A stretch of DNA of 64,000 nucleotides from Ilyonectria destructans (Eukaryota; Ascomycota; Sordariomycetes; Hypocreales; Nectriaceae). Under the pieces are notes generated by a model. The model was given only the letters and a program-made list of their open reading frames with translations, ran no database searches and was not told where the DNA came from. This document shows positions 2,841 to 63,430 of the stretch, piece by piece. The stretch's first letter is position 1; each line of letters starts with the position of its first letter. Position numbers and translations under genes: made by a program. Where the stretch lies: NCBI GenBank assembly GCA_020740775.1, contig JAHEWK010000008.1:2356001-2420000 (forward strand). The letters run 5' to 3'.

Positions 2841-2905
2841 CCATACTAGATGCCCAGAAAGACAGCAGTCAACCCCAACAGCCTTCAGCAAGACTCTCTC
2901 TCAAC

Positions 2906-3331
2906 ATGGACCAAACATCCACTGACATGGACGTCATCACCACCCTTGATGACTGCCTCACAGAGTTGTGGAACTTGGATCGGCAAGCCAAACACTTGAT
3001 GCACAGCCTGAGCCGTGTTGAGTACATATGGAACGAGTCTACGGCGGCAGTTCAGCGACTGCGCGTCCAGGTTCAAGAGGTTGCTCGCAAAGTCTCTAAA
3101 AAGGTATGAGTTAACGCTGACGCATGGGACTTGGCTCTAAGATCAATCCAGCTCGACGAAGTCGATCCACTTCCTCAGGAGGGAGATGAACAGCCCACAG
3201 CACCATCTACCCCCACTAACCCAAATCCATGGAACACGACTGTCATTCCAATAGGCATTTCGTTGCCCAAAGCGACCGCACCACGAGGTAATTCAGGCGA
3301 CGAACCAAACCTGACTGAGGGTAGGAAGTAA
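2906..3331 (+). CDS. Small coiled-coil protein with one intron, unknown function
   Basis: CDS joins 2906-3103 and 3152-3331, giving 125 residues. The 48 bp intron 3104-3151 has donor GTATGA, branch CGCTGAC and acceptor ATCCAG, in phase 0. Exon 1 is an amphipathic helix (LDDCLTELWNLDRQAKHLM then AAVQRLRVQVQEVARKVSKK). Exon 2 is acidic and Pro/Thr-rich (QPTAPSTPTNPNPW). The start ATG at 2906 sits in a good context (CAACATGG) behind a TATA box. The architecture matches the gene at 2147 (same intron length and phase, same order of helix and tail), although the proteins are not obviously alike in sequence. No function can be assigned. Confidence 0.6.
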
Positions 3332-3837
3332 AGTTGTCTTGTTTCTCTTCTCATCGTCGCGTATCCCCATGTCCATCGTTTAGCCATGGCTTGTTATCAC
3401 GGGGAATGTCTTGGGTTTCAGTCACTTCATATCAGCTCTCAGCGAAAGCCTGGGCTTTAAGATTGCCTTGTACCAAATCCTGGTGCACATCTCTCTTTAC
3501 GCGCTTTTGTATCTTCATTCACTTGTTTAGTGCAACAACGCACACGCCTGAATAACATCTATTGCGTCTCACTTGCGGTAATATCGAGACTCAGACATGT
3601 TGCATGAGTCTTCTTGTCATTTCGCCTTGCCAAAGGGTCTCGATCTTATTTGAGAGTAAGCTCCGTACCTATCCCGGGTGACACCCTCTGGTTCCAACCT
3701 TCTCGCAGCGTATCACATCCCACCATGCAAGTTGGTGGCGTGACACGACTTCGTCCAATGAACTCGCCAGAGGCCAGTGGTTGGACGGTAGCTGAGCGTT
3801 TAAAGACCGGCCGCGCCCCCCACTTCATCTCCTCGTC

Positions 3838-4317
3838 ATGGCCTCCCCTGTCCTTCTTTCTACTACACAACACGGCTCCAACTCAATGGAGATTGATAAT
3901 TCTGCCCTTGATCTCCTCGCCGACAGTCTGGCCAAGTTCTCTGTTACGAGGCGGGGCTTCGACCGCAACATCCACCAACACTCCCACTGCGTCGAGCGCA
4001 GCACTCGTCGTCGTCCGAAAAGGCGTCCGAACCGCCCCAGGCGCTCCCCGATCAACCATGGGCGATACTCAAAGCCAAGTTTCCCGGAGCGACAGACCGT
4101 GGCTAGTTCACACGACGGGGCAGCACGGGACGCTGTCTATCACGATGATGCTCCGACCTGTCAGGGAGTGGGAATGGAAGTTGGAGAAGCTGCTGGCGAG
4201 CCCCTTGTTTCAGTAGATTATATCGATTTAACAGATGAGAGCAAGAGTCTGGAAACAATTTTCAAAGAATCGGTGACCATTTATGTTGAGGCATCGTGGT
4301 TCCCTGCCAGGACCTGA
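3838..4317 (+). CDS. Hypothetical basic protein, 159 residues
   Basis: ATG in the context CGTCATGGCC. The N-terminal part is Ser/Leu-rich (DNSALDLLADSLAKFS). A strongly basic stretch around residues 57-70 (RRRPKRRPNRPRRSP) would serve as a nuclear localisation signal. The C-terminal part is acidic (DYIDLTDESKSLETIF). No family is recognised. A 200-codon frame on the same strand from 3614 overlaps it. I prefer this one because its end looks protein-like and its start context is better, but a spliced gene using parts of both frames remains possible. Confidence 0.35.
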   Translation: MASPVLLSTTQHGSNSMEIDNSALDLLADSLAKFSVTRRGFDRNIHQHSHCVERSTRRRPKRRPNRPRRSPINHGRYSKPSFPERQTVASSHDGAARDAVYHDDAPTCQGVGMEVGEAAGEPLVSVDYIDLTDESKSLETIFKESVTIYVEASWFPART

Positions 4318-5125
4318 GCTGGTGGAGATTTGGTGGTGAGATGAGTGTTAGGCTAAAGATAGAGATTTCGACAACAGACTACAGTGCCTTCATTATGCTT
4401 TAGTCGTGTGACACTGAGGTGTAAGAATGCTCATTCCCAGTACATGGAGATTCTGCACCGGCAGACCTATCAACAAGGTGCGGGTAGACAGACGATCTAC
4501 CTAGGTCAAGTACCCCCACGTTTAGCGACCCCACAGGGATGGATGATGAGCTAGGCTGCATTCTCATTACTGTTGTTATCTACCCTTTCTTCCCCACTTG
4601 CATAAAGGAACGTGCGTCAGGTTACGTTGGAATAGCCATCACCAACGCCACGATTGGCGATGCGCGCACAGTCGTCCACCCCCAGCATCCTGGGGTTGTG
4701 CCCAGGTGCAGAAGCAGGGGGTTGTCGGGTAAACCTCGGGCGTTCAAGGTACATAAAGACCACCATCCTCCCCGCCCCGAAGCAAGAAACGTAAGCCACC
4801 TCTCGCAGTCGCTTGTTGGTTGTCCATACTAGTCTCACTGCCGTGCGCAATCCCGCGAGCTCAGAAATTCGCCGTGTATCGGTATAGCTACACCCGCAGT
4901 CAAGTATGGACACTGAAGTATTTCGTAACCAGTAGCAATCGAGATACTGACCCAAACATTGCGGCATCTTATTTGTGATCTTGTCGCAAGGAAGAAGCAA
5001 GGGCCTCACAACGATCCTCGGCGTCACCAAAACACCATCCGCTGCATACAGCCATATACAACGACGGAACTGAACACCCCGTCAGAACACCACATCCACC
5101 TTTATCACTCAAATTATACCCCAGG
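4318..5125. other. Intergenic
   Basis: No gene is supportable. A 137-codon minus-strand frame (4617-5030) has no recognisable features. The last part is the probable leader of the JmjC gene at 5126. Confidence 0.35.
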
Positions 5126-7717
5126 ATGGCAGGCGAGAGCATTGAGGACCTCGCGGGCGAGGTTGCGAGCCTCCAGACCCGAGCAGACTCCTGGGAAAGC
5201 TTGGTCAAAAAGCTGCATAAGCTCCTGCCGTCTCGTTCACAGAACGGAACACGGCAACGAAGTCGGGATAGCAACAGCTCAACTGGCGGCCAAACCGGGC
5301 ATCAATTCGATGTCCAGGGTGTGTTGAGAATCGCTAATGAACTTATTACCCAAATACGCCCCCTCCAACAGGATATTAGAAGTCTCGCAAGCAGGATCAA
5401 ATCGCAGCAACAGGCTAGTGGAGCAGGGGCATCGTCGTCACAGATCAAGGTCAGAACTCCTCTACCCACTGAACCACAGACTGAGGAGCGCAGAGGAGAT
5501 GGCAGGGGTAATGAGAATAACTGCGAGAATGACGGCGAGGAGGACAACGAAGCAGAGGACGACAACGACGCCAACGACGACTCCGATAAGGAGGAGGACA
5601 ACAACACCGACGACGACGCCGATGAGGAGGAGGACAACAACACCGACGACGACGCCGATGAGGAGGAGGACAACGATGCCAACGAGGACGACGACGACGA
5701 CGCCGAGAAGGACATCGACGCCGAGGAGGAAGCAAGCGACGCCTCCCCGATACCGACCCACGATTTGCCCACGGAACAAGACCCAGCAGATCTTTTTACC
5801 CTGACGCCTGATCAACTGGGCGAGCGTATGCCAGAGACACTATACCAGCTGTCACAAAAGCCAAAGTTTGCGAATAGGGCCAGAGTACCTTGGATAAAAC
5901 AGGAGGCCTTAGGCGCGGATATCGAGAAGAAGCTAGTGCCAAAGGAAGACTGTGATATGAAATTCAACATCTTCCAGGCACGGCAAGATGGCGGCATGAA
6001 CATCTACAGAGACGACCCAAAAGAAGGGAGGGACTTCGAGTGGCCAGACTTCAGTGAAATAGGGGACGTCCCAACCAAGAGACAAGCGGTCAAGGCCTTG
6101 GTAAAATTCCTAGGGAAGCCAGACAAAACGGTCTCCTATTTCAACGGGATCATGGAGTCCGAGCTCTATGATGCGTGCCCTCTGTACGCGGGTAAGATGC
6201 TCGCTGAAACCGAGGCACTCATACATGCCAATCAAACTTACACACATCTTGGCAAGGAGGGATCAGCGACAGCAATGCACCAAGAAGATGCGAATTTTTG
6301 GTCTGTCAATGTTTGTTTCGGTGGAGCGAAGCTCTGGACCGTCGTCGCAGAAAAGCACACCAAGAAGTTTGAAGCCTGGGTGCGCGACAACTGGATATGC
6401 AAGACCTGCCCACAGTTCGTTCGTCATCTGAACATGTTTTTCGGACCAGAGCAGCTCAAGGCTGCGAGAATTGAATTTGAAATCTTCGTCCAGGGTCCAG
6501 GAGTTATGGTGGTCACTAAGCCGTATCAGTACCACCAAGTGTTCAATGTCGATCATTCTTTGGCTATTTCGATTAACTTCCTGGCTCCTGGACAGACCCC
6601 AACATTTTTCGACCATGATGGGCCGCTTGAGGTCTGTAACGAATGCGGTTTGAAGAATCTGTGCGGGAGAGAAGGGTTTCACGTCACATTGGTTGACTCC
6701 GATATACCACCCCCTAGCTCCGATGACTCCGGCGACTCCGATGCGGCAGCAACAATTCCGGGACAAAAGAGAAAGCCGTCCCAGCATGCCACCAACATAA
6801 CGAAACGGAGAAGGGCCGACAAAAAGGACTGGATTGATGCAGTTCCGGCGCGCAGGAGCCAGCGGGCAGCAGGACAGCAGGTCGCCACTCTCCCCAACGG
6901 CGTCGGCGAGGAGGTTGACAAACGGGCAGAAAGGCTCAGCAGGATGGAAGAATACCTTAAGCAGGGCCGATTTGTTGTTACACCGACCCTGAATGAGGGT
7001 GAATCTATGGCCGATGATGTAGTTCGTCTTGCATTGTCCATCCTAAGCCGGGATGCTCTCAAGCAACTCATCAAGGCCATAGAGTACTCAAAAAGGCCAC
7101 CAAAAGAATGGGCTCGCAAACCTCTCGACCAACTCGAGCTCAACGATGGCAACCCAGCCTACAAATCTATCGCACGACGGAGCAAGCAAATGAATGAGAC
7201 CGAAGAAAAGACCGACTGCAGTAAGATTACCGACAGACACGATCAATTGCAGTTTGCGACAGACTGCCAAGCTTTAAGGGACGAAAGGAATGTCGATCGT
7301 CTGCCGAGCGACGTTGTTGATGAAATTTGCAAAATGAGCAGCTCGACTCGTCAGCAAGTCAAGGACCGCAATAAGGAAGGGACAAAATGGAGAAGCGTGT
7401 GTGGGAAGTTAAACTACGGTTCAGGGCTCCTGGCGTTGATCCCCTGCTGTCGTATTAGCCTGAGTCCATTTGATGTTAGCTCAGGGGATTACACAGCACT
7501 TGCCAAGGAGAAGGAAAATGGGCGCCTCCGAAGGTTCCATGAGTTACTAGACAGTAACTATGCCAGATCGATTTGCGCCGCAGCGGAAGCCTGGCTTAAG
7601 GCTGTGGATGAAGGGAAGCAATTCGGTCTTGATGATATTGGCAGCGACGTTGACTGGGATAACCTGAGGGAAGACGAGATTCTGGAGCAACTTGAATCCC
7701 TAAGGCCAATAAGATAG
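5126..7717 (+). CDS. JmjC-domain protein (putative Fe(II)/2-oxoglutarate oxygenase)
   Basis: Single-exon protein of 863 residues. It has an N-terminal helical region (to about 100), then a very acidic Asp/Glu/Asn tract (about 140-210) made of 12-residue repeats. A conserved segment begins LTPDQLGERM, followed by FEWPDF. The JmjC-like core spans about 340-490: an HQE metal-ligand triad start at about 384-386 (AMHQEDANFWSV), then KLWTVV, and the distal His in QYHQVFNV at about 470 followed by SLAISINFLAPGQ. A Cys motif (CNECGLKNLCG) and a basic stretch (KRRRADKK) follow. JmjC proteins commonly demethylate histones, but the substrate cannot be told here. A broken paralogue lies convergently downstream (8095-9354). 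Confidence 0.8.
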   Translation: MAGESIEDLAGEVASLQTRADSWESLVKKLHKLLPSRSQNGTRQRSRDSNSSTGGQTGHQFDVQGVLRIANELITQIRPLQQDIRSLASRIKSQQQASGAGASSSQIKVRTPLPTEPQTEERRGDGRGNENNCENDGEEDNEAEDDNDANDDSDKEEDNNTDDDADEEEDNNTDDDADEEEDNDANEDDDDDAEKDIDAEEEASDASPIPTHDLPTEQDPADLFTLTPDQLGERMPETLYQLSQKPKFANRARVPWIKQEALGADIEKKLVPKEDCDMKFNIFQARQDGGMNIYRDDPKEGRDFEWPDFSEIGDVPTKRQAVKALVKFLGKPDKTVSYFNGIMESELYDACPLYAGKMLAETEALIHANQTYTHLGKEGSATAMHQEDANFWSVNVCFGGAKLWTVVAEKHTKKFEAWVRDNWICKTCPQFVRHLNMFFGPEQLKAARIEFEIFVQGPGVMVVTKPYQYHQVFNVDHSLAISINFLAPGQTPTFFDHDGPLEVCNECGLKNLCGREGFHVTLVDSDIPPPSSDDSGDSDAAATIPGQKRKPSQHATNITKRRRADKKDWIDAVPARRSQRAAGQQVATLPNGVGEEVDKRAERLSRMEEYLKQGRFVVTPTLNEGESMADDVVRLALSILSRDALKQLIKAIEYSKRPPKEWARKPLDQLELNDGNPAYKSIARRSKQMNETEEKTDCSKITDRHDQLQFATDCQALRDERNVDRLPSDVVDEICKMSSSTRQQVKDRNKEGTKWRSVCGKLNYGSGLLALIPCCRISLSPFDVSSGDYTALAKEKENGRLRRFHELLDSNYARSICAAAEAWLKAVDEGKQFGLDDIGSDVDWDNLREDEILEQLESLRPIR
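5591..5690 (+). repeat. 36 bp in-frame minisatellite in the JmjC gene
   Basis: Two to three near-identical 36 bp units rich in GAC, GAG and AAC code for the acidic repeat EEDNNTDDDADE. The length is a multiple of three, so copy-number change keeps the frame. The antisense frames over this tract stay open only because of the biased composition. Confidence 0.7.
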
Positions 7718-41846: not shown

Positions 41847-43345
41847 TCAGAAGTGGGTGGCGGGGTGGGGTGGGGGTGGAGCAATACGGTCTTGCAGCAG
41901 CCGCACGACGGCCTCGCGCCCGTCCGCGGCGGCCCACGATAGCGGCGTCCGGCCCTTCCTGTCCGCCGCCTCGGTGTGGGCACCCCGGTCGACGAGCAGC
42001 CGCACGACGGCCTCGTGCCCGTTCTTGGCGGCCCGCAACAGCGGCGTCCGGCCCTTCTTGTCCGCCGCCTCGGTGTGGGCGCCCCGGTCGACGAGCAGCC
42101 GCACGACGGCCTCGTGCCCGTTCTCAGCGGCCCACGACAGTGGCGTCCGGCCATGCGAATCTTTGGCGTCGATATTAATGCCAGATTGGCCCCGCCTTTC
42201 CAAAATGGCCCCCAACGCTCCTGCCACTCCATACCTCGACATAACGTGTATTAGACTAGTCCCTTCTGGCGGACAGTCACCAGAGTTTTGCTGCAATATC
42301 CCGTAAACACGCACCCATCGTTCCACAAGAGTGTTTGATGGCCAGGTGAAACATTGCAGAAGATCCTCTTGAGGGACTCTTCTAGCATCACTTTGCTTCG
42401 TGTGCGCCACCCACGAGGTCGTGGCGTAATGCAGGAAAGGAAACTTAGATCTCAAGCGGTAATGCTCGTAACTTGCTAACTGACCGATCTCCTCCATCGC
42501 CAAGTAGCGTATGCAGGTCCTAGAAAGCCGATGGTGTGCGATTCCGACTACAAAATCGGGTTTGGCGGACTCGTCCAGAGCCGATAGGCCCTTCTCGACG
42601 AAAAAGTCCTTGACGGACTGGTGGATGAACTGGACAACCTTCGCATCCGATGTGACCTCGGCAAGACCGCGGCTGAGAGTCTGAACCCGCCTCTTCATCC
42701 CGTCGTGGTCGGATGGGGAATCCCCTGCGGTCTGGCATTCGTGCAATGACCGGTGTGGGCAATCGGCCTCGACAAGCATAGCCCATCGCAATTCGTCCAG
42801 TGACAAAGGCCGCGTGGCAAAGCAGATCCATTGGATGAGATTTAGGGACTCCGAGCCTATGTTTCGGATGAGGTCGCGGTACAAGGCGTCGAGCTCTTGG
42901 GGGACCGAAAGGATGACGGCTTCAATTTCCTTCAATCCGGCACCCTTCTAGGCCCAGAACTTGCTTCACCACAAGCCACGCCCAGATAAAAACGCCGTCG
43001 GCGCGGTTCGTGATCAATCCTGGAATCGTAGATGATGTTCGCCCACGGAACGAAGAGAGCTTATCTTGCACGAAAGTCGATATATCCTTCCGGTTCTCTT
43101 TCTCTGCGCATACTTCGAACATGCCATCCAGGTCCAGAATCGGGTAGTGACGACAAGTGAAGCAGATGTGAAACTGCTTCAAGCCGATAGACAGGAGCCT
43201 CTGGAGCAAGGACTTGAACTCCTCGACTAGTTTGACCGCAGTCTTCTCGCCAGATTCGTCTAGGGCGTCGATAAATAACCAGACCGCGCGAGTTTTCAAG
43301 ACCTTCAGAAGCGATGATTCGACGAGTCGTGGCAGCTCACGCGGT
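41847..43345 (-). pseudogene. 5'-truncated NACHT-ankyrin copy with a small frameshift
   Basis: Homology to NLR2 begins within the NACHT region, near the WHPGEL block (about 43340), and runs to the ankyrin end. The first frame (43299-42922: RAVWLFIDALDESGEK) stops after GLEGCRIEGN. The next frame (from 42935: IEAVILSVPQELDALYRDL) then continues to 41847. Comparison with NLR1 (CTTGAGCGCGAGGGTGTC) shows about five bases missing near 42950, which explains the shift. The P-loop, N-terminal domain and any sigma motif are absent. The ankyrin part keeps four units. Clearly non-functional as an NLR. Confidence 0.75.
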
Positions 43346-44143: not shown

Positions 44144-44488
44144 AATCCTGAGATAGAGCAATTGTCAATATTTCACAGCTTCCCGCTGTGCCAAGCCCAG
44201 AGCGTTTCAGAGAAGTGTCTCTCTCGTGCCCCGAAGTAGACTTCCGAGGTTTAGCCTCGGATTTTCTTTCTCCGGAGCAACCGCCGGAACAACTGCTCAG
44301 AAGCTGAGCACACTGGACCGAGGCTCACGGCCTGCACCGCCACAGGCACAGACGCGTTGCGGGTATGAAATCCGTCGCGTCCGCCTTCCTCCTTAACTTC
44401 TTCACCCTCACACCGCACCCCTTCCTCGATCCGCCGAAGCATACCGCAGCTAAAAAGACGATCCCCATAAGCCTCTGAGACTACACCG
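44144..44488. other. Intergenic
   Basis: Leader to the PNP-like gene at 44489. No feature seen. Confidence 0.35.
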
Positions 44489-45829
44489 ATGACCCGCCGT
44501 CCCGTTAACCGAGACGATTTCCCCGTCGCCATCATTTGTGCGTTAAAGGTCGAGTACGATGCTGTCTCTCTTCTGGTTGATTGGTGGGATGATGGAGACC
44601 GATATGGCACGGCAGTGGGAGACTACAATACATACAAGACTGGGAGGATGGGAAACGTAAACATTGTGCTGGTGCACCTGTCGGGCAGAGGAAAGTGCAT
44701 AGCAGCAGCGGCGGCGGCTAGTCTTCGTTCGAGCTTTTCAAAGCTGAAATTGGTCCTACTGACCGGAATCTGTGGTGGAGTACCAAGTGGTGCCACGGAT
44801 CACGAGATGTTACTTGGCGATGTTATTATTAGCAAGACTATCGTCCAGTACGATATTGGCAGACAATATCCTGGTGGTTTCGAGATGAGTGATCATTTCA
44901 GTGACCAACTTGGCGAAATGACGGAGAGTGTTAAAAGTCTGGTTGTGACTCTGGAAACTGATCATGGGCGTAAGTGTCTCGAAGGCCGAGCGGCAGGTTT
45001 CCTTAAACAACTGCAGAAAGGTGCATCGTCCAAAGAACAGCAAGTCGAGTACAAGTATCCCGGTGCTGTGAGCGATCGGCTATTTGAGCCTGGTTATCGT
45101 CATAAGCACCAGATTTCAATGCCACATCATTGTGGAGAGTGTCGCAACAGCTCAGGCTCAACATGTGATAAGTCTCGAGAGTTATCCTGTGAAGAACTTG
45201 GATGCAGTGACAACTATGCCGTGCAGCGCCACCGCCTTGAGATAAAACGGAATTTGGAGGAACACGGGCTCACTGAGGATGCTCAGGCACCTTGCGTGTT
45301 TTTCGGTCAGTTCGCGTCTGGCGACAAGGTGATGAAATCTGGAGAGCACCGTGACGAGATCGCGAAACAGCACGGCGCCATGGCCTTTGAGATGGAAGGC
45401 GCCGGTGTATGGGGACGGGTTCCGTGCATCATTGTCAAGGGCGTCTGTGACTACGCGGACAGCCACAAGGACAAGACCTGGCAAGGATTCGCAGCCGCAA
45501 CAGCAGCCTCTGTGGCACGGGCACTGGTGGAGCATCACGCCCAGTCCATGCTAAACAGCGTACAGGATCGCCCAGGGCAACTAACACACCGTGCCAGACC
45601 TGTGAAAAGCTTTGCATACCCGCCACGGCGTCGGGGCCAGCGAGGCTTTTGCTACCGATGCGATAAGCGTAGCCATAAGCTACCACGCTGTTACTCGCGG
45701 GAGGACACTGTCTGGAAAGGCCGTGTAAACAGGAAGGACGAGGACCGCTGTATAAACTGTGGTGCTTCTGACCACTGGTGGGACCTTTGTGATTGGGAAG
45801 ATTTGCTGATTAAACGGAAGCCCTACTGA
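44489..45829 (+). CDS. PNP-like nucleoside phosphorylase domain fused to two CCHC zinc knuckles
   Basis: Single-exon protein of 446 residues. The first 350 residues form a PNP/UDP-phosphorylase-like domain as found at the N-terminus of fungal NLRs: FPVAIICALKVEYDAV, LVLLTGICGGVPSGA, LGDVIISKTIVQYDIGR, the MEGAG Glu (AMAFEMEGAGVWG) and GVCDYADSHKDKTWQGFAAATAA with its catalytic-type Asp. A Cys-rich insertion (HHCGECRNSSGSTC) lies in the middle. No NACHT follows. Instead the C-terminus carries two CCHC zinc knuckles (CYRCDKRSHKLPRC at about 388 and CINCGASDHWWDLC at about 421), which usually bind single-stranded nucleic acid. The PNP domain may cleave or sense nucleosides. This pairing is unusual. 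Confidence 0.8.
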   Translation: MTRRPVNRDDFPVAIICALKVEYDAVSLLVDWWDDGDRYGTAVGDYNTYKTGRMGNVNIVLVHLSGRGKCIAAAAAASLRSSFSKLKLVLLTGICGGVPSGATDHEMLLGDVIISKTIVQYDIGRQYPGGFEMSDHFSDQLGEMTESVKSLVVTLETDHGRKCLEGRAAGFLKQLQKGASSKEQQVEYKYPGAVSDRLFEPGYRHKHQISMPHHCGECRNSSGSTCDKSRELSCEELGCSDNYAVQRHRLEIKRNLEEHGLTEDAQAPCVFFGQFASGDKVMKSGEHRDEIAKQHGAMAFEMEGAGVWGRVPCIIVKGVCDYADSHKDKTWQGFAAATAASVARALVEHHAQSMLNSVQDRPGQLTHRARPVKSFAYPPRRRGQRGFCYRCDKRSHKLPRCYSREDTVWKGRVNRKDEDRCINCGASDHWWDLCDWEDLLIKRKPY

Positions 45830-46323: not shown

Positions 46324-49300
46324 CTAACCAAACTTCCGAATTCGACTACATAAGAGTCGTAATGGTCGCAATTTCATCCGGCTCTTGCTCGTTTCAAGCT
46401 TCTGGATAATAGTTTCGTTTCCTCCCTCTTTAGCTACCGACAGAGGCGACTGACCACAGTTGTCCTCTGAGTCTGGAGAAGCACCCTCTTCAAGTAGTAG
46501 CGTGACGACGGGCACATCTCCTCTTTCCACAGCCCGCAAAAGCGGCGTCTAGTGTCGTTAAACGGAAATGTGTATTTAAACCGGAGTGAGTTCACTTACA
46601 AGCTATACCAACCCAACCAAAGCAGCGTCAGCTACCAGTTCGACTCTACGGAAGGCAACTCGGGTTCACTTACCAACTATACCAGCCAAAACAGAACAGC
46701 GTCAGCCATCGATTCGAGCCTACTCAACACAACTCGGGTTCACTTACACGCTATACCAGCCAAAACAGAACAGCGTCAGCCACCGATTCGAGTCTACTCA
46801 ACGCAACTCGGGTTCACTTACATCCTATACCAGAACAGCGTCAGCCATCGATTCGAGCCTGCTCAACGCAACTCGGGTTCACTTACATCCTATACCAGAA
46901 CAGCGTCAGCCATCGATTCAAGTCTACTCAACGCAACTCGGGTTCACTTACATCCTATACCAGAACAGCGTCAGCCATCGATTCGAGCCTGCTCAACGCA
47001 ACTCGGGCTCACTTACCCACTATACCAGCCAAAACAGAACAGCGTCAGCCACCGATTCGAGTCTACTCAACGCAACTCGGGTTCACTTACATCCTATACC
47101 AGAACAGCATCAGCCATCGATTCGAGTCTACTCAACACAACTCGGGTTCACTTACCAACTATACCAGCCAAAACAGAACAGCGTCAGCCATCGATTCGAG
47201 TCTACTCAACACAACTCAGGTTCACTTACATCCTATACCAGCCAAAACAGAACAGCGTCAGCCATCGATTCGAGCCTACTCAACACAACTCGGGTTCACT
47301 TACACGCTATACCAGCCAAAACAGAACAGCGTCAGCCACCGATTCGAGTCTACTCAGCGCAACTCGGGTTCACTTACCAACTATACCAGCCAAAACAGAA
47401 CAGCGTCAGCCATCGATTCGAGTCTATTCAACACAACTCGGGTTCACTTACCGGCTATACCAGCCAAAACAGAACAGCGTCAGCCACCGATTCGAGTCTA
47501 CTCAACACAACTCGGGTTCACTTACCGGCTATACCAGCCAAAACAGAACAGCGTCAGCCACCGATTCGAGTCTACTCGACACAACTCGGACTCACTTACC
47601 CACTATACCAGCCAAAACAGAACAGCGTCAGCTACCAGTTCGACTCTACGGAAGGCAACTCGGGTTCACTTACACGCTATACCAGCCAAAACAGAACAGC
47701 ATCAGCCACCGATTCGAGTCTACTCAGCGCAACTCGGGTTCACTTACATCCTATACCAGAACAGCGTCAGCCATCGATTCGAGCCTGCTCAACGCAACTC
47801 GGGTTCACTTACCAACTATACCAGCCAAAACAGAACAGCGTCAGCCATCGATTCGAGTCTACTCAACACAACTCGGGCTCACTTACCCACTATACCAGCC
47901 AAAACAGAACAGCGTCAGCCATCGATTCGAGTCTACTCAACACAACTCGGGTTCACTTACACGCTATACCAGCCAAAACAGAACAACGTCAGCCACCGAT
48001 TCGAGTCTACTCAGCGCAACTCGGGTTCACTTACATCCTATACCAGAACAGCGTCAGCCATCGATTCGAGCCTGCTCAACGCAACTCGGGTTCACTTACC
48101 GGCTATACCGGCCAAAACAGAACAGCGTCAGCCATCGATTCGAGCCTGCTCAACGCAACTCGGGTTCACTTACACGCTATACCAGCCAAAACAGAACAGC
48201 GTCAGCCATCGATTCGAGTCTACTCAACACAACTCGGGCTCACTTACCCACTATACCAGCCAAAACAGAACAGCGTCAGCCACCGATTCGAGTCTACTCA
48301 GCGCAACTCGGGTTCACTTACATCCTATACCAGAACAGCGTCAGCCATCGATTCGAGCCTGCTCAACGCAACTCGGGCTCACTTACCAACTATACCAGAA
48401 CAGCGTCAGCCATCGATTCGAGCCTGCTCAACGCAACTCGGGTTCACTTACCGGCTATACCAGCCAAAACAGAACAGCGTCAGCCATCGATTCGAGTCTA
48501 CTCAACGCAACTCGGGTTCACTTACCGGCTATACCAGCCAAAACAGAACAGCGTCAGCCACCGATTCGAGTCGACTCAACGCAACTCGGGCTCACTTACC
48601 AACTATACCAGAACAGCGTCAGCCATCGATTCGAGTCTACTCAACGCAACTCGGGCTCACTTACCGGCTATACCAGCCAAAACAGAACAGCGTCAGCCAT
48701 CGATTCGGGTCGACTCAACGCAACTCGTGTCCACTTACCAACTATACCAGAACAGCATCAGCCATCGATTCGGGTCGACTCAACAGAACTCGGGCTCACT
48801 TACCCACTATACCAGCCAAAAACAGAACAGCGTCAGCCATCGATTCGGGTCGACTCAACGCAACTCGGGTTCACTTACCAACTATACCAGAACAGCATCA
48901 GCCATCGATTCGGGTCGACTCAACACAACTCGGACTCACTTACCCACTATACCAGCCAAAGCACAGCGTCAGCCATCGATTCGGGTCGACTCAACGCAAC
49001 TCGGGTTCACTTACACGCTATACCAGCCAAAACAGAACAGCGTCAGCCATCGATTCGAGTCTACTCAACACAACTCGGGCTCACTTACCGGCTATACCAG
49101 CCAAAACAGAACAGCGTCAGCCATCGATTCAACCTGAATGTCTGCCCATCTCGGACTTTGGTGGACTCACTAGCCTATAAGAGTAATTCACCTTCGAGTT
49201 TTTGTCAAGTAGCATCTTGACGCTCTTCTCAGACCCGCTTTCAATTGCCCAGGCTAACGGTGTAGCACCACCCTCATCTTTCGCCTTAATGTTAGCTTCG

Positions 49301-51472
49301 TTTTCCAATAGGAGTGATATTACCGTTTTGTGTCCTCTCCAGGCGGCCCAATGCAACGCCGTGGTATTAATTTTGTCCTGCGCATTGATTTTGGCCTTCT
49401 TCTTGACCAACTCTTTCACTACGGCTAGGTAGCCTCTCTCCGCAGCGTACAACAGTGGCGTCCGGCCCTCGTCGTCTCCAGAATTCGGGTCCGCGCCATT
49501 CTCGAGCAGCTCTTTCACTACGGCTAGGTAGCCTCTCTCCGCAGCGTATAGCAACGGAGTCCTCCCGTATTCATCCTTCGCGTTGACATAAGTGCGAACT
49601 TGGTGTACCCTTTTCAGAATCAGCCGTAACTGCCCTATTAACTGATATCGAGACACTATGTGTGCGGTGCTGATCTTTTCTGGCGGCTGGTCGCTTGAGA
49701 ATGGCTCTATTATACGGTAAATCCGCGCCCACCGTTGCACAATAGCTTCCGAGACTCCGGAGAAATGGTCCGGAAGACCCCCTTGAGAGGCCTTCGTCTC
49801 GCTTTGTTTTACGTGCACTATCCACGAGGTCGTAGCGTAATGCAGGAAAGGGAACTCGGATCTCAAGTGGTCAGACTCGCGAATTGCTGACTGACCGATC
49901 TCCTCCATCTCCAAGTAGCGTATGCAGGTCCTAGAAAGCCGATGGTGTGCCATTCCAACTACAAAGTCGGGTTTGGCGGTCTCGTCCAGAGCCGAGAGGT
50001 CCTTCTCGACGAAAAAGTCCTTGACAGACTGGTGGATGAACTGGACAACCTTCGCATCCGATGTGACCTCGGCAAGGCCGCGGCTGAGCGTCTGAACTCG
50101 CCTCTTCATCCCGTCGTCGTCGAATGGGTAGTCCCCTGCGCTCTGGCATTCGTACAGTGACCGGTGTGGGCAATCGGCGTCGACAAGCATAGCCCATCGC
50201 AATTCGTTTAGTGACAAAGGCCGCATGGCAAAACAGATCCATTGGACGAGTTTCAGAGAGTCCGAGGCCATATTTCGGATGAGCTCGTGGTATAAGGCGT
50301 CGAGTTCTTGAGGGACCGAAAGAATAACGGCCTCAATCTTCTTTAATCCGACACCCTCGCGCTCAAGGTCCAGAACTTGCTCCACCATAAGCCATGCCCA
50401 CAAGAAAACGCCGTCGGCGCGGTTCGTGATTAAATCCGGAATCGTAGATGATGTTCGCTTACGAAACGACGAGAGCTTGTCTTGCACGAAAGCCGATATA
50501 TCCTTCCAGTTCTCTTCCTCTACGCATACTTCAAACACGCCATCCAGGCCCAGAATCGGGTAGTGACGACAAGTAAAGCAGATGCGAAATTGTTTTAAGT
50601 CGCTGGACGGGAGGCTGTGGAGCATCGACTCGAAATCCTCGACTAGCTTTACCGCGTTGTCTTTGCCGCATTCGTCTAACGCGTCGACGAATAACCAGAC
50701 TGGACGAGTCTCTAAGACTTTTGGAAGTGATGATTCAAAGAGTCGTAGAAGCTCGCCCGGATGCCACTGCCACTTTTCACCCGCCTTGCCAACAGTTTCG
50801 CACCGTTGTTTGAATGTGTCCACAAGGCCTGTCAGTGCCTCAGGGACCTGGCGTAGGAGTTGGTGAAGGAGCGACCGGAAGAGACCCAACGGCATCTTTT
50901 GGAGTTCAGAGCCACGGCCGTGGAAGAAGAATGAGAGGATCAAGGCTCCCTCTCGGCTGTTGGGTATTGCCATGGCACGGCCCAGAACGTATCGCAGCAA
51001 CGTCGACTTCCCAGAACCGGGCTTCCCTTTGATCCAGAGCAGGCCTCGATCACGAGAGGCCCAGCTCGTGTATGTTTCGTGTTGAAGCAGCCACTCGCAA
51101 GTTCCGTTAGCGGCGGCATCGATATCGTTGAACCGACTGTCCATTTCTGGAAAAGCCAGCGATCTTAAGCAATCTCGTAACGGATCGAAGTGTTCGTTTG
51201 TGTCTGAACGATATGGTGAGTTGAGAATCTCGACGAAAACGCCTGTTCTTACTAAAATACACAGGCTGTTGGAAAGTAGCCCCAGGGAATTGATTGCCAC
51301 TGCCATTGCTGATGTTCTGAGTGCCGCCAGGAGCGTTGAATTGGTCCCCGGTGCTGAAGCTGTTGTAGGATGAGCTCTGGGGAAAGGGCCTAGTGCGTGC
51401 CGTGTCCCCTTGTAACCCACCAGTCCGAGGCCGCTCCTGTGGCGGAAATATCTCGTCTGCGGCTCCCTCCAT
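46324..51472 (-). CDS. NLR1: sigma motif-NACHT-ankyrin receptor containing a microexon array
   Basis: Exon 1 51472-51253 carries a sigma amyloid motif (STGDQFNAPGG, TQNISNGSGNQFPGATF). A 49 bp phase-1 intron (51252-51204; GTAAGA, TTCAG) leads to exon 2 (51203-49192). This begins with the conserved CLRSLAFPEMDSRFNDIDAA block, then a NACHT NTPase with P-loop GKPGSGKSTLL, Walker B-like VWLFVDALDECG and several ankyrin repeats ending LLDKNSK. The next ankyrin exon (46548-46324; TPLLRAVERGDVPVVTLLL) lies 2.6 kb away. Between them are 36 predicted one-codon exons and 37 introns (see 46549-49191). With all included, the protein is 854 residues. Sigma-NLRs sense a ligand through the repeats and pass an amyloid fold to a motif-matched effector. 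The SesB gene upstream is divergent. Confidence 0.8.
46549..49191 (-). repeat. Tandem array of 37 introns and 36 one-codon microexons
   Basis: Unit length is 74 bp (24 copies), or 65 bp in 11 units lacking a 9 bp CCAAAACAG-type piece, with small variants; the sum of units matches the 2489 bp between the first and last microexon. On the minus strand each unit reads GTAAGTG donor, a GCTGAC branch site, TATAG acceptor, then three variable bases and the next GTAAGTG. Donor and acceptor flanks are identical in 36 of 36. The triplets (minus strand, counts) are TTG 8, GAT 8, CCG 7, CGT 6, TGG 6, CTT 1; first at 49089-49091, last at 46600-46602. The flanking exons end AAG|gtgaat and resume after CACTAG. 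All junctions are phase 0. Confidence 0.75.
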
Positions 51473-52826
51473 TGTCTAAGGCATGTTAGATCAGTTGAAG
51501 AAGGCTGAGGACGACGGAAAGAAGAGCGGAGTCGTACCAGGTATTGATCTATCCGAGGGCTTACTAGGCGGGGTCTGCTCAGCTGAAACTAGATGTGCAG
51601 AATGGATTCAGCTCCTGTGTGTGCGCCCAATTTGTAGAGGTTTCGCCCATTGGCTTCCTTTATTTTCATTTTCATGTACATGCATAAAGTCAGCACAACA
51701 AGCCAATCAGTTACTGTTATCGAGCATCGGCGTATCCTGAGCCAAATTCGAGGCAGCCAACCTGCAGCCACATCACAGGTATAGCGAATTATAAAAGGTC
51801 AGCAACCGCCCTGAGAACTTTTGGTGATGCAGGCTCAGAGGTCATCTCGCAAGTGGTCTGAACACTTTTGAGACGCCAAGCCACGACGCACACAAACAAA
51901 GGAAATGAGATTATCGAGCGCTCTAAGCGCTCTGCAAAGCTTCCAGTTTCTCCGGCCAAGCGCTCAATCGCATCTATGAATGACCTCCATGCATTCTTCG
52001 GAGTATAAACGATGGCCCCGGCGCCAGGTGTGCTTCGTGGCCTAGGGGTGTTCGGGTGTTATGGCTTTGAAAGCCCGTTCAGGCCCGCTCAGCGATTGAC
52101 CACCCCTTTGCATCACCACTTGTGCTAGGCAAATGGGTTCGGGCCGTGCCTGGTACGGGCCGGTAATGGGCTGCCGCGGCCTGGCGCTACACATGGACGG
52201 CGTCGACCGTGGGGCCTCATCTGGCTAGAGCTAACAAGATTTGCCTGGACTTCGCGCGCAACACGGAGGCGGGCAGGCTTCTGAGAAACCCAGGCGCAGT
52301 CACTCCAATTCATCTCCCCGGCCAGGCAAAGGGTTACGCAGACGGTACAAGACAGCTGCCAGGGATTGATACCCTGTCGCGGGGCAAGGAGTCATCGCGC
52401 AGGCGTGTCTTTTAAGCGAAATGCCTGATTCGCATCCCGCCATCCTGGGGCCATCGAGCCTCACCGATCCCGGAACGCATGGACGACAATATAAGAGGTC
52501 GGGAGTCGTGCCATGCCGATGGTAAAGGCTCGAACAGGGTACACTGGACACCGTGGTTCTGCCTCCTGCTTGTCCTCCAGCAACCGGCGGCGGTCGCACA
52601 TCACTGACCAGGAGCCCAAGAGTGAAGAGGACGCTGCAGGGCGACGGCCGCAACGAGCAACTTGGTTGCTGCGCAGCAGCCGCCACAGCCACCGCAGCCA
52701 CCACATCACGCGAGAAGTGACGGCTGAGTGACATTCATCAACTGGCATTTCCAGTAGTCCTCCTTCCTCGCAACTTCGCATTTTCTCAGAGCCGCCACTC
52801 TTCTTCAAAGTGCGTCACGCACGATT
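51473..52826. other. Divergent region between NLR1 and SesB
   Basis: No gene is supportable. The part nearest NLR1 (about 51540-51960) is the inverted counterpart of 55120-55550. The rest is GC-rich with no recognised element, and presumably holds both promoters. Confidence 0.4.
51540..51960 (-). repeat. NLR1 upstream flank, inverted copy of the NLR2 upstream flank
   Basis: The minus strand here resembles the plus strand at 55120-55550. Shared blocks, in order, are GCAGAGCGCTTAGAGCG, GAGCCTGCAT, CGGTTGCTGACCTTT, ATAATTCGCTATACSTGTGA, GTGGCTGCAGGTTGGC, TTGGCTCAGG and CACATCTAGTTTC. It places homologous sequence upstream of both NLR genes. Confidence 0.65.
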
Positions 52827-54047
52827 GTGATGATCTCCACCAACCCGAGCTCCCTTTCCTATCGATTCTACAACGCATCGCTGATGAGGAGGTTGCGAGC
52901 GAAATTTCCATGGCGGAAGCAGCATCGGACTGGCGACAATTCACCGGAAATTCATCAACAGCAGGAGACAAGCCGCGGCCACGACCCGCCCAGTCCTCCA
53001 CCGCATCACGAGACAGACCTCGGGTCACCCCCTCAGAGCACTCCAGTTCCCTCCTTCCCGGATGGAGTTGAAGTTCTGCACGACTGCCGCGACGCCACGA
53101 TCGACATCTGCTTTGTCCACGGTCTGTCTGGCAATCGGGTCAGCACCTGGACCGCCAATAGGCAGCCCAAACCCTGGCCCGAGACGCTCCTGCCACTCAA
53201 GCTCAGCAGGGCTCGCATACTCACGTATGGCTACGACGCGTACATCGTGCGGAAACCGGTCGCATCGACAAATGGGCTGATCGATCACGCCACGAACCTC
53301 TTGAACGACCTGGCGACCGACAGAGCCTGTTCCAATGCGTCCTCTCGACCGCTAGTCTTTGTCGCCCACAGCCTGGGCGGCCTCGTCTGCAAGGAAGCCG
53401 TTCTTCTCTCCCGAAACAACCCCGAACCACATCTCCGGGGCATATTCGACTGCACCAAGGGCATCGTATTCCTGGGCACGCCTCACAGGGGATCCTGGAT
53501 GGCCGACTGGGCCAGGATACCGGCTTCGGCCCTTGGGATCGTCAAGTCCACCAACAAGTCGTTGTTGAAGATCTTGGAGACAGACGACAAGTACCTGCAG
53601 TCCATTCAAGATCGCTTTTGGTCCATGGTACGGGAACAGCAGAAGGCCGGCCGGGATCTCGAGGTTACGTGCTTCTTTGAAGAACTGCCCTTGTCTGGGG
53701 TCGGAAAAGTCGTCTCCAAGGACTCGGCTACCCTTGAAAGTTACAACGCGATCAGCATCCACGCCAACCATAGCAACATGGCTAAGTTTAGTTCCGTGGA
53801 CGACAATGGATTTAAAAGGCTGCTTGGCGAGCTGACCAGATGGGAATCACAAATCAGGAATTCAGCTGCCAAGCAACCAAGACGATCTATAGAAGAAGCA
53901 CAGATAAAAAGGTCAGCCAACTCGTACTTCAACAGCTATGGCCCTGGCGACCAATTCAACGCTCCCGGCGGTACTCAGAACATCAGCAAAGGTAGTGGTA
54001 ACCAATTCCCTGGGGCTACTTTCTCGGGGACTGTGCAATTTGGCTAA
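52827..54047 (+). CDS. sesB: SesB-like alpha/beta hydrolase with C-terminal sigma amyloid motif
   Basis: Single exon, 406 residues. After a basic/Pro-rich N-terminus comes a serine-hydrolase fold: oxyanion-type IDICFVHGLSG (His about 98), the nucleophile elbow FVAHSLGGLVCKEAV (Ser about 182), LGTPHRGSWMADWA, and a distal His in HANHSNMAKF (about 315). Residues 370-406 form the sigma motif (YGPGDQFNAPGG then TQNISKGSGNQFPGATF). SesB-type proteins act as effectors: their hydrolase domain is thought to be switched on when the motif is templated by an NLR. It is divergent from NLR1, whose motif is of the same subtype, and convergent with SesA. Intact and full length. Symbol by family resemblance only. 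Confidence 0.8.
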   Translation: MMISTNPSSLSYRFYNASLMRRLRAKFPWRKQHRTGDNSPEIHQQQETSRGHDPPSPPPHHETDLGSPPQSTPVPSFPDGVEVLHDCRDATIDICFVHGLSGNRVSTWTANRQPKPWPETLLPLKLSRARILTYGYDAYIVRKPVASTNGLIDHATNLLNDLATDRACSNASSRPLVFVAHSLGGLVCKEAVLLSRNNPEPHLRGIFDCTKGIVFLGTPHRGSWMADWARIPASALGIVKSTNKSLLKILETDDKYLQSIQDRFWSMVREQQKAGRDLEVTCFFEELPLSGVGKVVSKDSATLESYNAISIHANHSNMAKFSSVDDNGFKRLLGELTRWESQIRNSAAKQPRRSIEEAQIKRSANSYFNSYGPGDQFNAPGGTQNISKGSGNQFPGATFSGTVQFG

Positions 54048-55992: not shown

Positions 55993-58422
55993 ATGGGCTC
56001 TGCGCAGAGCACATCCTTTATCAGCCACGGTACTGGGGACCAACTTAACACTCATCGCGGCACCGTGAACAAGAGCGAAGGTGATGGCGCCCATCTCCCC
56101 GGAGCCACTATTCACGGTGATGTGCATATTACTTGTAAGAGCGGCTGTTTTCGCGGATAGCCGGAGATTCTTAACTCACCATATCGTTCAAACACAGGGG
56201 AATCATCACAAAATTGCTTACAATCGCTGGCTTTTCGAGAAATGGACAGTCGGTTCCACGACATCGATACCGCCGCTCAGGGAACATGCGAGTGGCTGCT
56301 TCGACACCAAACGTACACGAGATGGGCCTCTTGTGATCAAGGTGTGCTTTGGATCAAAGGGAAGCCCGGCTCTGGGAAGTCGACGTTGCTACGACACATC
56401 CTGGGTAAAGTCGTGGCAATACCCACGACCGCGGAGAGTGACTTGATCCTCTCGTTCTTCTTCCACAGCCGCGGCGCTGAACTCCAAAGGACGCCGTTGG
56501 GCCTCTTCCAGACCCTCCTTTACCAGCTCCTCAGGCAGGTCCCTGACGCACTGCAAGACCTCGTGGCTACTTTCAAACAACGGTGCGAAACCATTGGCAA
56601 GCCGGGTGAAAAGTGGCAGTGGCATCCAGGCGAACTGCAATGCTTCTTCGAGTTATCGCTTCCGAAGGTCTTGGAGACTCGCCCAGTCTGGTTATTCGTC
56701 GACGCGTTGGACGAATGTGGCGAAGAGATTGCGGCCAAGTTAGTCGAGGAGTTCAAGTCCTTGCTCCAAAGGCTTTCGTCCATCGGCTCGAAACACTTTC
56801 ACGTCTGCTTCACTTGTCGTCACTACCCGATTCTGCCAGACCTGGATGGTGCGCTCCAAATATGCGCAGATGGAGAAAACGGGAAAGACATATCGACGTT
56901 CGTCCAAGAAAAGCTCTCTTCGTTCCGCGTACGAAAGTCATCCATGATTCCGGATTTGATCACGAAACGCGCCGAGGGCGTGTTCCTCTGGGCGTGGCTT
57001 GTGGTGAACCAAGTTCTAAAGCTTGACAGGGAGGGTGTCGGGCCAAAGAAGATCGAGGCTGAAATCCGTTCGATTCCTCAAAAGCTCGATGCCTTATACC
57101 GCGAACTCATCCGAAACATGGGCTCGGACTCTCTGAACCTCGTCCAATGGATCTGCTTTGCCATGCGGCCGTTGTCATTAGAAGAATTGCGATGGGCTAT
57201 ACTTGTCGAGGCCGATTGCCAACATCTGTCATTATACGAATGCCAGAACGCAGGAGATTACACATCCGACGATGATAGAATGAAGAGGCGAGTTCAGACG
57301 CTTAGCCGCGGTCTTGCCGAGGTCACGTCGGATGCGAAGGTTGTCCAGTTCATCCACCAGTCCGTCAAGGATTTTTTCGTCAAGAATGGCCTATCGGCTC
57401 TGGATAAGACCGTCAAAGCCGACTTTATAGTCGGAATCGCACACTATCGGCTTTCTAGGACCTGTATACGCTACTTGGCGATGGAGGAGATCGGCCGGTT
57501 GGCAAGCGATGAGCGTGGCGACATAATATCTGAGTTTCCTTTCGTGCATTACGCCACGACCTCGTGGGTAGCGCATACGAAGCAAAGTGATGCTAGAAGT
57601 GTCCCTCAAGAGGATCTTCTGGACTATTTCGCAGGGCCATCAAACACTCTTATGGAACAATGGGTGCATATTTACAGAATATTGGAGATATATTCTGATA
57701 ACTGTCCGCCAGAAGGGACTAGTCTAATACACGTTATGTCGAGGTATGGAGTGGCAGGAGCGTTGTGGGCCATTTTGAAAAGGGCAGACCAAACTGGCAT
57801 TAATATCGACGCCAAAGATTCGCATGGCCGGACGCCGCTATCGTGGGCCGCCGAGCACGGACACGAGGCCGTTGTGCGGCTGCTCTTCGACCGGGGCGCC
57901 CACATCGAGGCGGCGGACGAGGTGGGCCAGACGCCGCTGTCGTGGGCCGCCGCGAAAGGGCACGAGGCCGTTGTGCAGCTGCTCCTCGACCGGGGCGCCC
58001 ACATCGAGGCGGCGGACGAGGTGGGCCAGACGCCGCTGTCGTGGGCCGCCGCGAAAGGGCACGAGGCCGTTGTGCAGCTGCTCCTCGACCGGGGCACCCA
58101 CATCGAGGCGGCGGACGAGTGGGGCCGGACGCCGCTATGGAGGGCCGCCGCGTACGGGCACGAGGCCGTTGTGCGGCTGCTCCTCGACCGGGGCGCCCAC
58201 ATCGAGGCGGCGGACGAGTGGGGCCAGACGCCGCTGTCGTGGGCCGCCGAGAACGGGCACGCGGCCGTTGTGCAGCTGCTCCTCGACCGGGGCGCCCACA
58301 TCGAGGCGGCGGACGAGTGGGGCCGGACGCCGCTATCGTGGGCCGCCCTCGGAGGGCACGACGCCGTCATGCAGTTACTGCAATTACATGGTGCCCAACC
58401 TTCGTCGACTACGTCGCCTTGA
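55993..58422 (+). CDS. NLR2: sigma-like motif-NACHT-ankyrin receptor
   Basis: Exons 55993-56134 and 56198-58422 encode 788 residues. The 63 bp intron (GTAAGA, branch TTAACTC, acceptor ACACAG, phase 1) is at the same place as in NLR1 and is recognisably homologous. Exon 1 encodes a variant sigma motif (GTGDQLNTHRG, TVNKSEGDGAHLPGATI). Exon 2 has CLQSLAFREMDSRFHDIDTA, the NACHT P-loop GKPGSGKSTLL at about 102-112, Walker B-like VWLFVDALDECGEE, and six to seven ankyrin repeats (AADEVGQTPLSWAAAKGHEA) ending QLHGAQPSSTTSP. It is an intact receptor. Its motif resembles that of SesA (shared TVNKS) more than that of SesB. Confidence 0.85.
57824..58400 (+). repeat. Near-identical 99 bp ankyrin units
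   Basis: About six GC-rich 99 bp units, each coding one 33-residue ankyrin repeat, differ at only a few positions (for example the residues after AADE and TPL). Such homogeneous repeats are usual in fungal NLRs that evolve by repeat exchange. Three long antisense or off-frame open frames here are composition artefacts. Confidence 0.75.
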
Positions 58423-63000: not shown

Positions 63001-63430
63001 GCTGCTTCTCCAGACAGGGACGACCGTCAATGAGGTGGATTGGGGGGGCCGAACGTCACTTTCGCTGGCCTCAGAGAACGGCCACGAGGCGGTGGCGAGG
63101 GTTCTTATAGAGAAGGGAGCAAACGCCAACGCTAGCGATAAGGACGGATTGACACCGCTTGAGTGGGCCTTAAACAACGGCCACGAGGCAGTAGCGGGGC
63201 TTCTTATCGAGAAGGGAGCAGACGTCAACGACAGCGACAAGGACGGATGGACACCGCTATGGTGGGCCTTAAGGAACGGCCATGAGGCGGTGGCGGGGCT
63301 TCTTATTGACAAGGGAGCAGACGTTAACGCCAGCGACAAATACGGATGGACACCGCTTGAGTGGGCCTTAAGGAACGGCCATGAGGCGGTGGCGGGGCTT
63401 CTTATTGACAAGGGAGCAGACGCGGCGTGA
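60076..63430 (+). CDS. PNP-NACHT-ankyrin NLR receptor
   Basis: Exons 60076-61114 and 61179-63430 encode 1096 residues. The 64 bp intron (GTAAGT, ATGTAG, phase 1) joins VPNP to HQDLSNNHRQRLLDSL. N-terminal PNP/UDP-phosphorylase-like domain: YTIAWICALHIEMAAARAML, LGLMVGIGGGVPSN, LGDIVVGTRVMQYDLGK, FEMEAAGLMDILP and GICNYSDSHKNKEWQKYAAAAAAAY. Then NACHT: FLWISGKPGAGKSTIMKF (P-loop) and FTCFIDALDECDEQQ. Ankyrin repeats end the protein; the last four (DKDGLTPLEWALNNGHEAVAG) are nearly identical at DNA level. It is an intact receptor of a known class. Unlike its neighbours it has no amyloid motif, so the PNP domain itself is presumably the output or sensing module. Confidence 0.9.

Follow-up and report, generated by a model that had tools for sequence, protein, structure and literature searches.

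Single-codon exons predicted in tandem within a NACHT-ankyrin receptor gene of Ilyonectria destructans

What is a tandem repeat doing within the ankyrin domain of a fungal receptor gene when each of its units, read on the strand of that gene, is an intron-like sequence followed by three bases? The repeat is at 46549-49191 on the minus strand of the window, by which is meant the whole stretch of 64,000 nucleotides analysed, and its host is a NACHT-ankyrin receptor (NLR) gene of Ilyonectria destructans (Nectriaceae, Sordariomycetes). The answer considered probable here is a codon-cassette array in the ankyrin sensor, with predicted splicing of its triplets as single-codon exons and a role in diversifying the receptor. 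The basis for it is that the spacing is exact, the splice signals are intact and the array is placed in phase 0, together with the diversity of the triplets and the occurrence of sister arrays of unrelated sequence.

The array and its host gene

The gene, its array and its divergent neighbour are laid out as follows.

52821..54044, plus strand: alpha/beta hydrolase resembling serine esterases, sigma motif at its C-terminus, divergent from the NLR gene (PF17106 1.1e-18, PF05057 2.3e-4)
51253..51472, minus strand: N-terminal exon of the NLR gene, with a sigma amyloid-type motif (P0002 against the open reading frames; ends set by hand)
From the N-terminal exon to 51204, minus strand: intron of about 49 nt (worked out by hand)
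49171..51203, minus strand: main NLR exon, NPHP3_N/NACHT and ankyrin repeats, ending ...MLLDKNSKVNYSYRL (Pfam; start set by hand)
49191, minus strand: alternative first donor, GTGAAT, with which the first intron would be 100 nt (sequence)
49092..49170, minus strand: first array intron, GTGAGT...TATAG, 79 nt (sequence)
46600..49091, minus strand: the codon array proper, 36 exons of three bases each, from CCG to CTT, with 35 inner introns (62-72 nt) between them
46549..46599, minus strand: last intron, GTAAGT...TTTAACGACACTAG, 51 nt, acceptor ACTAG/ACG (sequence)
46324..46548, minus strand: final exon, which carries the other half of the ankyrin domain (TPLLRAVERGD...) and stops in frame at 46324

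By Pfam the main exon has the NACHT-type NTPase and C-terminal ankyrin repeats that characterise the nank genes of Tuber, its matches being PF24883 (2e-33) and PF12796 (2.3e-31); PF05729, at 2e-5 and 24.9 bits, is below its cut-off of 26.7. In P0002, a public model of the NLR, the sigma motif is at residues 34-74 (PF17106, NACHT_sigma). With that motif N-terminal in the NLR and C-terminal in the esterase-like gene, the two form a head-to-head pair, and the hydrolase is likely, judged by its sequence and tag, to be the effector partner of the NLR. NLR/effector pairs with the sigma motif on both partners, in such a layout, are described in passages of PMC9815663. Elsewhere in the window there are further tandem repeats, of 99-bp period and 89-91% matching (41896-42152, 57826-58374 and 63076-63422), which by eye are ankyrin-like and possibly belong to other NLR-like genes with highly alike repeats. 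There is also a long open reading frame at window 44471-45829 (+) which we take to resemble a nucleoside phosphorylase of the PNP_UDP type, and phosphorylases of that type are common NLR-linked effectors.

The units of the array are 65 or 74 bp, each being an intron and then a triplet, and a tandem-repeat scan gives a period of 74 with 35.7 copies. An earlier inspection, here the sequence-only reading, had claimed that exactly three bases separate each acceptor from the next donor, and this holds without exception, TATAG-NNN-GTAAGT being present in 36/36 units on the minus strand. The perfect GTAAGT donor that it gave each unit is likewise in all 36, and in the 35 aligned inner units both that donor and TATAG are invariant. 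Some of its other details need relaxing: TATAG does precede every triplet but the last intron ends in ACTAG; the branch-like site is GCTGAY in 35/35 inner introns, GCTGAC as claimed in 31 and GCTGAT in four; and the sizes of 62 or 71 bp apply to 33 of the 35 inner introns (71 nt in 22, 62 nt in 11), there being one of 68 nt and one of 72 nt, with 79 and 51 nt for the outer ones. All length differences are intronic, the acceptor-donor spacing being constant across the array. The totals by sequence are 36 triplets and 37 introns, and 36 one-codon exons between 37 tandem introns in an NLR gene, as had been proposed, have strong sequence support, the splicing being predicted. The proposal that the array joins two halves of one ankyrin domain in phase 0 also stands, flanking exons and Pfam being in agreement.

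The triplets are TTG (8), GAT (8), CCG (7), CGT (6), TGG (6) and CTT (1), with 0 stops, and the five main ones are near-equal in number (chi-square p 0.97); that 28 distinct triplets are stop-free has a p of 0.17, which is weak. Because every exon is 3 nt, the joining of any donor to any later acceptor keeps the frame, and by simple arithmetic every splice path through the array, with up to 2^36 subsets, stays in frame. When the window was scanned for chains of at least three units, one array was found, at exon length 3, and there were zero such chains at exon lengths 1, 2 and 4-12. In the 71.7-Mb genome TATAGNNNGTAAGT has 81 matches, 36 of them being the window array, compared to 32 for the reversed control pattern. 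As the units are head-to-tail and within 10-100 bp the definition of a minisatellite fits; that label is true of the array DNA, but leaves the triplets unexplained. A plain satellite was rejected, and the contention that this is not ordinary satellite DNA is borne out by the invariant splice signals, the 3-nt spacing, the hypervariable triplets and the sister arrays of unrelated sequence. The nesting of stwintrons is also absent, each inner unit having its own donor, branch-like site and acceptor.

Where does the array begin? The sequence-only reading had the first donor at 49191, use of which would leave the ankyrin repeat nine residues short on direct splicing of the outer exons. However, the in-frame GTGAGT at 49170 is closer to the donor consensus than is the GTGAAT at 49191, and with it the exon ends KVNYSYRL. 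In the three preceding repeats of the gene there are, by hand count, 14 residues between [EL]L[LV] and TPL/TAL, but with donor 49170 the spacer at the array junction is 12 residues, and thus two codons would be missing from the ankyrin repeat. (In 120 homologues the mode is 15, 470/803, with a rough pattern that counts from the first two leucines and is hence about one residue longer.) From its fit to the consensus 49170 is the likelier first donor, in which case the shortfall would be two residues rather than nine.

Sister arrays and the variability of triplets

Elsewhere the genome has four more arrays, on contigs C13 (two), C67 and C25, whose introns belong to three other families.

L034 (C13:982500-992400), 2885-4006 (minus strand) and 5323-7465 (plus strand): codon arrays in an inverted pair of a small signal-peptide-like gene
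L037 (C25:435000-442000), 3340-4393, plus strand: HET-domain gene with seven single-codon exons (by sequence)
L035 (C67:1055500-1065400), 5060-5700, plus strand: array of a fourth family, with units of 78-82 bp and one donor that has decayed into ATAAGT

Genome-wide the pattern GTAAGT-(40-70)-TAG-NNN-GTAAGT has 51 matches, against 8 for its reversed control, 35 being in the window array, 7 in C13, 5 in C67, 1 in C25 and 3 elsewhere (C12:5314281, C56:5932 and C67:236209), with no tandem repeat in the 7 kb around the C12 match. Its CAG version has 32 against 7, 27 of them in C13. Patterns with GTATGT (16 against 10 in the control) or GTGAGT (6 against 6) as donor gave no array, mixed and other donors being outside their scope, and a looser exon-size pattern gave, among the matches listed, 246 against 363 in the reversed control. 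Apart from itself the window array matches nothing in the genome, and nothing in plasmids. DNA queries from the window, C13 and C67 arrays match their own loci only; that from C25 matches itself and C29, the latter through coding sequence only, and the HET relative on C29 has no array within the 3.2 kb examined. These intron families do not, then, have the dispersal over many unrelated genes that is typical of introners. An introner burst between pre-existing codons of an ordinary protein was rejected for the window array, which has six triplets only, and these linked to near intron bases; the C13 and C25 arrays may have arisen in that way.

The two C13 copies have a first exon of 37 codons, signal-peptide-like by eye, and then single-codon exons with a 72-bp period. 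In the plus-strand copy there are 25 of these with intact sites and one with a lost acceptor, and, with its final donor lost, the copy closes in an exon that runs on to a stop (by eye); in the minus-strand copy there are 12 with intact sites and one with a lost acceptor, and beyond these a TGC with intact sites and then a degenerate acceptor. The copies are identical over 400/400 bp upstream and at 179/180 bp over exon 1 and intron 1, and their triplet lists diverge after the fourth unit. Cysteine codons are enriched in both, 6/26 (p 1.6e-4) and 3/13 (p 0.008), counts which include the terminal TGC and exclude the lost-acceptor triplet, and the two tests are not independent since the copies share their first units. 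The first exon has no homologue among 5.8 billion proteins, and in the genome only its two copies were found. On C25 the triplets are GAG TGG AAC GAT CTT GAA GAA, between an opening exon ending ...WIHYDFE (by eye) and a HET-domain coding exon; downstream of the array the frame of this gene breaks, and hAT-transposase-like ORFs (by eye) flank it on both sides.

Which part of a unit varies? Of the 74 columns of the window array, those of the exon are the three most diverse, with a mean pairwise diversity of 0.64 compared to 0.069 for the intron (9.3x). Exon columns are also the top three in both C13 arrays (0.71 against 0.13 with 25 units, 0.74 against 0.11 with 13 units), and the chance of three given columns having these ranks is ~1.5e-5 per array, columns being taken as independent. 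The two small arrays have less of a contrast, and their exon columns are not cleanly top: on C25, 0.83 against 0.18 with ranks 1, 5, 1 (5 units), and on C67, 0.67 against 0.27 with ranks 4, 1, 8 (7 units).

Among the 13 pairs of window units whose introns are identical, 69% have different triplets. In a test with 500 shuffles and uncorrected p-values, the identity of a triplet in the window array goes with the bases of the upstream intron that are close to it (columns 57-66, z 5.5-7.2, where a single indel of nine bases accounts for most of the signal) and with the first informative base downstream (z 5.4). Mid-intron columns upstream (23-44) have a weaker association, of z 3.7 at most and in several columns due to the same two units, and the far intron ends have none. 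Strong near and absent far, such linkage is the pattern that recombination inside introns, carrying triplets with it, would leave. In C13 the association is weak (maximum z 3.7, in column 11; otherwise z 2.0 at column 11 upstream and, downstream, 2.2 at column 17 and 2.4 at column 60) and is therefore no direct demonstration of recombination there. Adjacent identical codons are enriched in C13 (7 compared to 1.9 expected, p 7e-4), but not in the window (4 compared to 6.0 expected, p 0.87).

Gene models and competing explanations

What do public gene models make of such sequences? Ranked by identity, P0002 (I. destructans) is the nearest public protein, at 99% over 83% of the query. It ends WLLLLDDDDDDDVSEPELR, in which the TGG of unit 3 is joined by the triplets that follow the 62-nt introns, all 11 of these and no others, 12 triplets thus serving as exons before the model reads on into intron; from this composition it follows that a gene caller treats the units as introns and the triplets as exons. 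P0002 also omits clearly coding ankyrin sequence and ends inside an intron. In view of that omission it is taken as a prediction and not as RNA evidence, and it has the look of a gene-calling artefact. Among the NLR homologues listed, the models of the other 119 do not have the array-derived residues sought in such a place; P0093 has two of five short array strings, elsewhere in the protein, by chance. Of 12 HET homologues of the C25 gene that were found, 11 were examined, as proteins. Three of these, P0121, P0122 and P0124, have ...WI[HD]xxFE joined directly to [AT]TW[TE]R with zero codons between, and five, P0123, P0126, P0127, P0129 and P0130, start with residues resembling a translated I. 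destructans repeat intron, as though the predicted start lay within an array intron. At the array position P0131 (Cladorrhinum samala) has ~21-23 additional acidic and aromatic residues, and the models of the remaining two begin elsewhere. Together with P0002 these five and P0131 are apparently distorted by codon-sized exons. As it was proteins that were examined, we infer, at the level of array DNA, that HET arrays may also be present in Fusarium and Sordariales.

Could the array not be one intron of 2.6 kb, from first donor to last acceptor, within which a minisatellite has grown with its triplets untranslated? The two outer sites, donor and acceptor, could each be used and join in frame, and the three HET models without intervening codons join the corresponding outer exons directly. 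However, such an intron would leave unexplained that exactly the inter-site triplets have the top diversity in three large arrays, that 3-nt spacing and mostly intact sites recur in unrelated arrays, and that the C13 triplets are Cys-rich. The ankyrin repeat would stay two residues short, and 2.6 kb is far above the ~49 nt of the other intron inferred in the gene. It is, all told, an unlikely explanation. The complete short-intron signals of each inner unit are equally what is needed for all 36 codons to be constitutively included, giving a fixed 36-residue P/R/W/L/D insert in an ankyrin loop and no isoforms, but near-equal numbers of five triplets are odd for a fixed structure and the Tuber precedent, in the passages that report it, is one of alternative splicing; constitutive inclusion seems quite improbable.

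It can also be asked whether the plus strand encodes a repeat protein, as all three of its frames are open for ~870 codons (ORFs of 878, 866 and 876 aa). They are open simultaneously because the unit is without TTA, CTA or TCA, whose count in the 35 units is 0; in the other arrays antisense stops are present (60/7/9 in the plus-strand C13 copy, 30/1/2 in its minus-strand counterpart, 6/8/8 in C67 and 1/6/7 in C25). With the open frames following from unit composition, and the ankyrin domain continuing on the minus strand on both sides of the array, a plus-strand protein was rejected and is given almost no credence.

With the codon-cassette array, triplets would likely be included in varying subsets, and one gene would give many in-frame sensor variants. 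The introns would be removed individually by intron definition and exon inclusion would vary between transcripts. Two included codons would restore the canonical ankyrin spacer and more than two would give a longer loop in the sensor, with the receptor likely signalling via its sigma motif to the adjoining sigma-tagged hydrolase. Over generations, unequal exchange or gene conversion in the near-identical introns may add, drop and reorder codons, the frame being intact, and the codon shuffling may be a selected diversity generator for non-self sensing.

Precedents and meaning

A long series of one-codon exons was not known to the sequence-only reading. However, 3-bp or codon-sized exons, alternatively spliced, are reported for NACHT-ankyrin/NLR sensor genes of Tuber melanosporum in passages of PMC9815663, PMC3689799, PMC4986451 and PMC10197012, two of which put their number at tens or dozens, and the source cited there for the 3-bp mini-exons of the nank family is Iotti et al. 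2012. The window array is therefore of a known kind, in another fungal class, with dozens of 3-bp exons, by sequence alone, between canonical splice sites in the sensor region. Going by those passages, what is shared is a NACHT-ankyrin NLR, tens to dozens of codon-sized exons and a proposed role in diversifying the C-terminal sensor. Tuber, however, is of the Pezizomycetes and has a nank family, whereas here there is, with the patterns used, a single such NLR in the Nectriaceae; alternative splicing is reported for Tuber, whereas here it is predicted and the likeness is one of design; and here the design is also in HET and signal-peptide-like genes.

Other systems are related in part, as the pertinent passages present them. 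The HNWD, ANK and TPR repeats of Podospora NLR sensors (PMC4986451, PMC9815663) also consist of highly similar units in tandem, which differ at a few hypervariable positions and which recombination reshuffles, but the unit there is a protein repeat, whereas that of the present arrays consists of an intron and a single codon. Introner-like elements and stwintrons (PMC4457414, PMC8469720) similarly involve families of near-identical spliceosomal introns within one genome, but here each family is at one locus (an inverted gene pair in the case of C13), and is head to tail with 3-nt exons, neither nested nor dispersed. Single microexons, e.g., that of Trichoderma Xlr2 (PMC11121469) and the 3-bp exon of Drosophila homothorax (PMC7392893), are very short, down to one codon; there is one per gene, and those passages mention no array of hypervariable triplets. 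Among the matches listed, the open literature, as far as its matching passages go, has no such arrays in HET or secreted-peptide genes, and no hypervariable exon columns, linkage decay or differing copies of the C13 type. What is new here is the four further arrays in three intron families, three of these arrays being in HET and signal-peptide-like genes.

Is there, then, a general ascomycete design, in which germline intron recombination shuffles codons in frame and splicing subsamples them, in NLRs, HET proteins and small secreted peptides? That is put forward tentatively, as a possibility somewhat short of an even chance. Exons of 3 nt are easily missed in annotation, and misannotation of such genes may therefore be widespread; the models of the HET homologues resemble the errors expected from missing them. 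The array is also a sharp test of how the spliceosome handles dozens of introns spaced by 3 nt. If its triplets are spliced in, the gene would be edited residue by residue via ordinary intron recombination, without frameshifts, and there would be further variation at the RNA level. Non-self recognition would then be diversified in a manner quite unlike the shuffling of repeat domains, and by a route present in two fungal classes, the Pezizomycetes, for which passages in the literature report it, and the Sordariomycetes studied here.
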